From the NCBI GenBank assembly GCA_024275115.1, contig JAJRZT010000082.1, positions 1 to 64,000 on the forward strand: 64,000 bases of DNA, read 5' to 3'. The notes under the pieces are model-generated. The model was not told the DNA's origin. It was given only the letters and a program-made list of their open reading frames with translations, and did no database searches. Positions within the stretch are counted from its first letter, which is position 1, and the number at the start of each line of letters is the position of its first letter. The position numbers and the translations under genes were made by a program. Source of the DNA: Gammaproteobacteria bacterium (GTDB lineage Bacteria > Pseudomonadota > Gammaproteobacteria > UBA6429 > Thiohalophilaceae). This document shows positions 51,487 through 54,825 of the stretch, piece by piece.

Positions 51487-51677
51487 TTTGCCAAAATCTT
51501 TGCAAAGTTGCGAGATACAATTGAAATTTGCTGAAAACGATTTTTTGTTTGAGCTTCGTTTGGTTTAGCTGGGATAAGGGGCTTATTTAGCGATGGTAAT
51601 TCGAATAAAATGCAGTTAATCTCAGTTTACTTAATTTTGTGCAAAATAATACAGGGTTAGTCTAAAATAGTGTGTAA

Positions 51678-52070
<393 letters not shown>

Positions 52071-52109
52071 GTTACAGTAGCCTGGTTGCCGATTAGCCTG
52101 GCTTATCTT

Positions 52110-52913
52110 TTAATTTTTCATCACATCTAACGTGGCTGGGTGATTGGGGTGGTTGAGCTGCAACACCCGTAAAGCATCTTTTTCCAGGTTTTTCAGGCCT
52201 AATTTTCGGTAGCCCAGCACCATGACTGCCAATGCATCGGGGATTGCTTTTGTTTTAGGGTAGTTCTGGATAACGTACTTTGCGCGGTTAACAGCGGCTA
52301 AAAACGCATTTCGATTCATATAGTATTTTGCGACAAATACTTCATAGCGTGCCAGGTTGTCACGTAAAAGCTTCATACGTTTTATTGCATCATTGCGATA
52401 CTGGGTTTTTGGGTAGCGTTTTAGCAGTTCAGCAAAATACTGGAAAGCCTGACGTGCTGCTTTTGGGTCACGCTCAGCTTCATCCTGATTGAATAATTTA
52501 CTAAAGAATGAGCTGTTCACATCAAAAGCGGCCAGGCCTTTTAAATAGTAGAGATAGTCCACGTTAGGGTGGTTGGGGTGAAGTTTGATAAAGCGATCAG
52601 CCGACAAAATAGCCGTTTCAGGCTCGTTGTCTTTATAATAAGCATAAGCAATTTCAAGTTGTGCACGTTCTGCGTATTTACCGTAAGGATAGCGTGACTC
52701 GATTTGCTCGTAGAGTTTAATCGCATCTTCGTAGTTTGTATCATTCAGGTGGTTTTTAGCTTCTTTGTACAGTTCGGCGGCGCTAATATCTTCAGGCAGA
52801 TCTTCTGCAGTCATCCCGGCGCAGCCATGTAAAAGAACCAGACTCACAGAGACTAAAATAATATTAGATAAAAAACGTTTCCAGCTTGATAGATTCATAC
52901 TTGATAGATTCAT
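52110..52913 (-). CDS. bamD: Outer membrane assembly lipoprotein BamD
   Basis: Lipobox LLHGC; TPR ESRYPYGKYAERAQLEIAYAYYK; N-terminal duplication MNLSSMNLSS. Confidence 0.93.
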   Translation of the reverse strand: MNLSSMNLSSWKRFLSNIILVSVSLVLLHGCAGMTAEDLPEDISAAELYKEAKNHLNDTNYEDAIKLYEQIESRYPYGKYAERAQLEIAYAYYKDNEPETAILSADRFIKLHPNHPNVDYLYYLKGLAAFDVNSSFFSKLFNQDEAERDPKAARQAFQYFAELLKRYPKTQYRNDAIKRMKLLRDNLARYEVFVAKYYMNRNAFLAAVNRAKYVIQNYPKTKAIPDALAVMVLGYRKLGLKNLEKDALRVLQLNHPNHPATLDVMKN

Positions 52914-52914
52914 A
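52885..52914. repeat. 15-bp tandem duplication (2 units) covering the bamD start codon
   Basis: CTTGATAGATTCATA at 52885-52899 and 52900-52914, identical. Confidence 0.95.
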
Positions 52915-53029
52915 ATGGCTTATTGCTTTATTTAGGTAATAGCGAAGGATGCAGTATACTCTGATGAGTCAGCAGATTAAATGCCTGACTTTGTAACATT
53001 GACCTAAAAATAACAAAGATCCCTTAAAA

Positions 53030-53104
53030 CCGATGCCAGTAGAACCGATGCCAGTAGAACCGATGCCAGTAGAACCGATGCCAGTAGAACCGATGCCAGT
53101 AGAA
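53030..53104. repeat. 15-bp tandem repeat (5 identical units) at the 5' end of rluD
   Basis: CCGATGCCAGTAGAA x5; each unit has an in-frame ATG and encodes MPVEP. Confidence 0.97.
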
Positions 53105-54052
53105 CCGCAAATATTAAAAGCCATTGTGCCGCAATCACTCACAGGAAAGCGCCTCGACCAGGTCTTAAGCCAGTTATTTAACCAGTATTCCCGTGCCCGG
53201 CTAAAACAGTGGATTCAAGCCGGTCGCGTCAGCGTTGAACAGCAGCAGCGAAAGCCAAAAGACAAGGTGTATGCGGGTGAAAATATTATTGTTAAAGTTG
53301 AAGCCGAAGTTGAAGTGGTCTGGCAGGCGGAGGACATCCCGCTGAATATTATCTTCGAAGATGATGAAATTCTGGTGCTTAACAAGCCCGTTGGTATGGT
53401 GGTGCACCCTGCACCGGGGCATTCTGCTGGAACACTCTGTAATGCCTTATTGCATCATGTGCCTAATGCTGAAAACCTGCCACGCGCGGGCGTGGTGCAT
53501 CGCCTGGATAAAGACACATCGGGAATAACCGTGGTGGCTAAAACCCTAAGTGCACATTGTTATCTGGTTGAGCAATTGCAGGCAAGAGAAATTGCCCGGG
53601 AATATATAGCACTGGTGCAAGGGGAAATGACCGCCGGGGGGACGGTCGATGCGGCGATTGGACGGCATAAAGTCGACCGCAAGCGCATGGCGGTGCGTGG
53701 TGATTTAGACAGCGGTGCAAAACATGCGGTCACCCATTACCGAATTCGACAGCGTTACCATGCCCATACCTTATTAGATGTAAAACTGGAAACCGGCCGG
53801 ACTCACCAAATTCGGGTGCATATGGCACATATTCATTACCCCATTGTGGGTGACCCTGTTTACGGTGGGCGGGTGCGCATCCCAAAGCAGTCGAGTGATA
53901 GCGTACGCGAAGCACTTCAGCAATTTAAACGCCAGGCGTTACATGCGTATCAACTCACACTGTCACACCCGGCTACAAAAGAGCAAATGCAATGGCAGGC
54001 ACCGCTAGCGGATGATATTCAGCAATTATTAACCAAACTCGAAGCCTTATGA
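53033..54052 (+). CDS. rluD: 23S rRNA pseudouridine synthase RluD
   Basis: S4-like N-term; GVVHRLDKDTSGITVVAKT; GRTHQIRVHMAHIHYPIVGDPVYGG. Confidence 0.95.
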   Translation: MPVEPMPVEPMPVEPMPVEPMPVEPQILKAIVPQSLTGKRLDQVLSQLFNQYSRARLKQWIQAGRVSVEQQQRKPKDKVYAGENIIVKVEAEVEVVWQAEDIPLNIIFEDDEILVLNKPVGMVVHPAPGHSAGTLCNALLHHVPNAENLPRAGVVHRLDKDTSGITVVAKTLSAHCYLVEQLQAREIAREYIALVQGEMTAGGTVDAAIGRHKVDRKRMAVRGDLDSGAKHAVTHYRIRQRYHAHTLLDVKLETGRTHQIRVHMAHIHYPIVGDPVYGGRVRIPKQSSDSVREALQQFKRQALHAYQLTLSHPATKEQMQWQAPLADDIQQLLTKLEAL

Positions 54053-54825
54053 GCTTAGGGAATAATTTGCCACAGGTCATAACACCGAGCTGGGCTGTTT
54101 CAGAAAAAGTTCAAGCACTCAGCACCACGCGCAAAGGGGGCGTTAGCCAGCCGCCCTACGACAATTTTAATCTGGCCACCCATGTCAATGATAATCCGGC
54201 AGACGTGAAACAAAACAGACGCCGCTTAAAACAGCACTGTTTGTTACCCAATGAACCTGGCTGGCTGCAACAAATCCACAGTAATAAAGTGGTTCGCTTA
54301 ACCGCACAAAATTTTCAGCAAACTTTTACCGCTGATGCAAGCTATACAACCGACCAAAACATTGTTTGCAGTGTAATGACCGCCGATTGTGTACCGGTCT
54401 TATTTTGTAATAAACAGGCAACCTGGGCCGCTGCGGCACATGCTGGCTGGAAAGGCATCGCCAATGGTATTCTAAAAAAAGTAGTACAAATTTATACCAG
54501 TAAAATAGCGGGTGATTTAGCTGATATACACGTCTGGATAGGCCCGGCTATCAGCGGCAAAGTTTATGAAGTTGGGCAAGAGGTAAAAGATGCATTGATG
54601 CAACAAGATACGGTTCTGGAAAAAGCCTTTACAATGCAAGATGCAACGCATTATTTATTAAATTCATCTTATGCTGCGCAGTTACAATTAATAAAGCAGG
54701 GTATAACCGCTGCTCAAATCTCAACTGAAGACTTTTGTACCTATCAGGACAGTGAGCGTTTTTACTCTTATCGCCGGGACGGCAGCAATACAGGTCGAAT
54801 GGCGAGTATGGTATGGCTAAGTTGA
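54049..54825 (+). CDS. pgeF: Polyphenol oxidase / peptidoglycan editing factor PgeF (YfiH family)
   Basis: STTRKGGVSQPPYDNFNLATHVNDNP; TADCVPVLF; AAAHAGWKG; downstream of rluD. Confidence 0.93.
   Translation: MSLGNNLPQVITPSWAVSEKVQALSTTRKGGVSQPPYDNFNLATHVNDNPADVKQNRRRLKQHCLLPNEPGWLQQIHSNKVVRLTAQNFQQTFTADASYTTDQNIVCSVMTADCVPVLFCNKQATWAAAAHAGWKGIANGILKKVVQIYTSKIAGDLADIHVWIGPAISGKVYEVGQEVKDALMQQDTVLEKAFTMQDATHYLLNSSYAAQLQLIKQGITAAQISTEDFCTYQDSERFYSYRRDGSNTGRMASMVWLS

Follow-up and report, generated by a model that had tools for sequence, protein, structure and literature searches.

Two divergently transcribed genes, bamD and rluD, each begin with a 15-bp tandem repeat that spans the start codon and supplies an additional ATG with every unit. 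The question that this arrangement raises is whether the facing repeats form a matched pair, in which copy number could tune translation initiation as was suggested in a first-pass annotation of the DNA, or whether they are the products of ordinary mutation. We analysed the locus within a window of 64,000 nucleotides, the whole stretch of DNA under study; the features of the locus are listed in Table 1.

Table 1. Positions of genes, repeats and candidate elements at the bamD-rluD locus (window coordinates).
Feature	Position	Strand	Basis and remarks
bamD, outer membrane assembly lipoprotein	52110-52913	-	TIGR03302, PF13525
15-bp x2.0 duplication	52885-52914	-	Spans bamD start, encodes MNLSS x2; sequence and TRF
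Palindromic AGTATACT, candidate -10 element on both strands	52953-52960		GTATAC recurrence; invariant in genus alignment
15-bp tandem array with 5.33 perfect copies of CCGATGCCAGTAGAA	53028-53107	+	Spans rluD start, encodes MPVEP x5; sequence and TRF
rluD, 23S rRNA pseudouridine(1911/1915/1917) synthase	53033-54052	+	NF008385, PF01479, PF00849
Fifth in-frame rluD ATG	53093-53095	+	Putative assignment by comparison with relatives' N-termini

Repeats at the bamD and rluD starts

The names originally given to the two genes were upheld by profile searches, in which BamD scored 276 bits against TIGR03302 (cut-off 81) and RluD scored 414 bits against NF008385 (cut-off 351), with the S4 domain of RluD falling at residues 40-83. 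The rluD ORF starts MPVEPMPVEPMPVEPMPVEPMPVEPQILK and is open through every unit, its translation reading MPVEP five times and then QILKAIVPQSL. Likewise, the bamD ORF starts MNLSSMNLSSWKRF and is open through both units, with MNLSS read twice and followed by WKRFLSN. Every unit in either array carries an in-frame ATG, and the units within each array are 100% identical according to TRF, which gave these two arrays the highest tandem-repeat scores in the window (160 for rluD and 60 for bamD, the next being 46). The five units at the rluD start and the two-unit bamD duplication that includes its ATG were therefore as first described; the location given for the rluD array was also right, although its limits (53030-53104) fell 2-3 bases short on each side.

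A five-unit array such as that of rluD is far beyond chance, and since its units are identical the expansion is recent. It can be seen that the fifth rluD ATG is the one closest to the conserved core of the protein, and the tail that would result from its use, MPVEPQILKA, is similar in length to those of relatives.

The repeats in related genomes

We compared the window genome (G000, a 2.5-Mb draft) with three congeners, G001, G002 and G003. The closest of these, G003, aligned with the window at 81.8% DNA identity over the bamD-to-rluD stretch. Its bamD reads MNLSSMNLSN, such that the duplication is present but 3 of the 15 bases differ between the copies, and its rluD, reading MPIELPQEQQILEA, has a single ATG and lacks the repeat. 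A single start was found at both genes in G001 and G002. Copy number thus differs between lineages, being two for bamD in G000 and G003 and one in G001 and G002, and five for rluD in G000 and one in all three congeners. When 40 genomes of the family were searched (a search at the level of the order gave the identical set), the bamD doublet was matched only in G000 and G003; a double rluD unit, with up to 3 mismatches allowed, was matched only in G000, the 39 others being without a match. In addition, no comparable repeat was seen at the bamD or rluD starts of about 70 other loci. Because it is common by descent with G003, the exact two-unit bamD array is not a chance occurrence.

The most parsimonious order of events would place the bamD duplication in the ancestor of G000 and G003, and the rluD expansion subsequently in the G000 lineage only. 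As the bamD event would precede the G003 split and the rluD event follow it, these are two events of different age and not a paired device. The congener comparison accordingly agrees with the earlier description of two independent, frame-preserving duplications that span start codons and add ATGs, but the idea of a matched pair finds no support, both on the ages of the arrays and because a 15-bp period also occurs in an unrelated array in flhF on the same contig. This shows that 15 bp is not special to the bamD-rluD locus, and we conclude that the equal period of the two arrays is a coincidence.

The flhF array (TIGR03499) comprises 7.7 copies of a 15-bp unit encoding KESQH in a linker (C74:192380-192494, outside the window). 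Its orthologue in G003 was matched over query segments 1-76 and 100-481, which leave out the repeated stretch. A further array on this contig, also outside the window, has a 16-bp unit and spans a start codon out of frame (C74:68609-68645); the corresponding site in G003 is single-copy. The gene that bears it (C74:68000-68620) encodes 206 amino acids and has no NCBIfam match, and the repeat puts two seven-codon upstream ORFs, MPNKDYA-stop and MPDKDYA-stop, ahead of it. The stop codon of each small ORF lies just past the next ATG, a layout that might permit coupled re-initiation.

Since the flhF and 16-bp expansions are absent from G003, fresh tandem expansion is a feature of the G000 genome. 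Exact (or nearly exact two-unit) tandem repeats with a period of at least 12 bp, counted in samples of the two genomes, numbered 7 in 395 kb of G000 versus 3 in 560 kb of G003. Three of the seven span a start codon, where 0.4 would be expected from uniform placement (P about 0.005), and gene starts may be favoured for repeats; when the bamD and rluD arrays, which are post hoc, are set aside the figure is one of five. Start-adjacent duplications were also present in loci fetched for other reasons, for example L031 and L077, in which the starts are mechanical ORF starts. A mild excess at starts would be explained by relaxed selection at termini.

Initiation at the repeated ATGs and the region between the genes

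A potential function for the repeats is that the number of rluD units sets the number of ATGs that capture ribosomes, so that a change in copy number adjusts the dosage of RluD and also of BamD. That the units of both genes are in frame and each contain an ATG is compatible with this proposal. We found no obvious Shine-Dalgarno sequence at any ATG of rluD or bamD on the basis of pairing with the 16S tail (the row for G003 being left out of the pairing table): pairing was -1.6 kcal/mol for the four internal rluD ATGs and -0.7 and -1.4 kcal/mol for the two bamD ATGs, against a median of -3.9 kcal/mol for first-ATG ORFs on the contig. The first rluD ATG, at -4.1 kcal/mol, lies near the median, and was rejected as a Shine-Dalgarno candidate with no AGGAGG-like motif visible upstream. 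Initiation that is independent of a Shine-Dalgarno sequence depends on a local lack of mRNA structure, which selects the start (PMC3121790), and several AUGs could therefore compete. With the transcript start assumed, predicted openness was similar around the first four rluD ATGs (0.59-0.72), being highest at the first (0.72) and lowest at the fifth (0.49). This hints, weakly, that initiation at the first ATG might be favoured and the N-terminal extension translated.

Taken as a whole, the openness and pairing figures do not demonstrate tuning. The suggestion that copy number tunes initiation also meets with the constancy of bamD, which has two copies in both carrier species, with the lack of Shine-Dalgarno sequences at the internal ATGs, with the different ages of the arrays and the absence of such repeats at bamD or rluD in any other relative, and with the existence of similar arrays, as in flhF, where there is no start codon. 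We therefore consider it unlikely that the repeats act as an expression tuner. Still less probable, and in our view very doubtful, is the broader proposal that in-frame start-codon arrays constitute a heritable translation rheostat, adjustable by slippage, in core genes poor in Shine-Dalgarno sequences, with populations holding rluD alleles of one to five or more ATGs.

Both repeats are situated on the gene side of the palindrome AGTATACT, a sequence identical to its reverse complement, in which TATACT could serve as a -10 element on either strand. Of 72 gaps between divergent bamD and rluD genes, some of them from close relatives so that the counts are not independent, 32 contain GTATAC, compared with 2.9 expected from mononucleotide shuffles. 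An alignment of the four congeners of the genus contains the invariant blocks GCAGTATACTC and, further towards rluD, GATTAAATGCCTG. The latter (52974-52986) provides, on the bamD strand, a TTTAAT located 17 nt before TATACT that is a weak -35 candidate. The recurrence of AGTATACT in many gammaproteobacteria suggests that it may be part of a widely kept, shared bidirectional promoter. A scan for the sigma-70 consensus at strict thresholds found no promoter, and an Rfam scan of 51500-54500 found no RNA element (best E 0.77). A symmetrical -10 arrangement is described for bidirectional promoters in a passage of PMC12825309 that cites Warman et al. 2021; the candidate AGTATACT element would resemble that arrangement in being readable both ways.

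Origin of the repeats and comparison with known systems

We consider it highly probable that the repeats are two independent, slippage-type tandem duplications that arose by ordinary mutation and lengthen dispensable tails, and that they are not a control device. Either replication slippage or recombination between short direct repeats could have produced them at the 5' ends of the two genes. A 15-bp unit is frame-neutral, and each extra unit would lengthen by five residues a dispensable N-terminal tail, which for bamD would be the n-region of the lipoprotein signal and for rluD the variable stretch before the S4 domain. The bamD sequence would have been duplicated once, before the split from G003, and have stayed at two copies, with decay by point mutation in G003; rluD would have gone from a single copy to five later, in the G000 lineage. 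The additional ATGs are most probably by-products, with translation probably proceeding mainly from one of them and with little effect on dosage. The N-terminal segment of rluD that precedes the S4 domain is short and varies widely across about 90 loci, indicating that the tail is unconstrained and that five-residue additions should be cheap.

An alternative explanation is that the arrays are an assembly artefact, by false expansion or as a chimera of variants. The draft state of G000 (115 contigs, 82.68% complete) might allow for this, but the rluD unit pair is confined in that genome to the rluD start, and the bamD duplication is found also in a separately assembled congener. Moreover, typical short reads are longer than the 80-bp array, the length of which should be resolvable with reads of that kind, and we regard an artefact as highly improbable. 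There is an equally slim chance that the repeated peptides are functional, for instance by giving RluD a tail for binding or by extending the n-region of the BamD signal, since although all units preserve both the frame and the encoded residues, the MPVEP repeat is in no relative and the DNA identity of the five rluD units gives no sign of selection rather than recency.

If the repeats are ordinary duplications, as we favour, the locus is a clean case, dated in relative terms, of minisatellites within coding sequence at the beginnings of genes, and it cautions that annotated start sites are ambiguous at such repeats. Were they instead tuners, they would represent frame-neutral adjustment, through copy number, of the translation of ribosome-modification and outer-membrane-assembly genes. 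A search of the open-access literature for precedents of in-frame repeats spanning a start codon returned none, a weak negative given that scope.

Among known systems, the start-proximal tetranucleotide tracts of the Haemophilus lic genes are phase-variable, with a unit length not divisible by 3, so that the frame is switched. The bamD and rluD repeats are similar to these in that a tandem array occupies the 5' end of the gene and more than one start is possible; however, their 15-bp unit keeps the frame and no frame-based on/off switching is possible. A phase-variable contingency locus was rejected on this ground, and because the arrays lie outside the candidate -10 element and span the start codons. 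The closest likeness is to in-frame coding minisatellites, or VNTRs, which are built of perfect head-to-tail units with a length that is a multiple of 3 and have lineage-specific copy number in poorly constrained protein segments. Minisatellite units are about 10-60 bp, and here we found 15-bp units repeated 5.33 and 2.0 times head to tail at 100% identity, both ORFs open through all of them, and copy number that differs between the lineages G000 to G003, with one genome of the species. The bamD and rluD arrays differ from such minisatellites in that they span the start codon, each unit adding an ATG.
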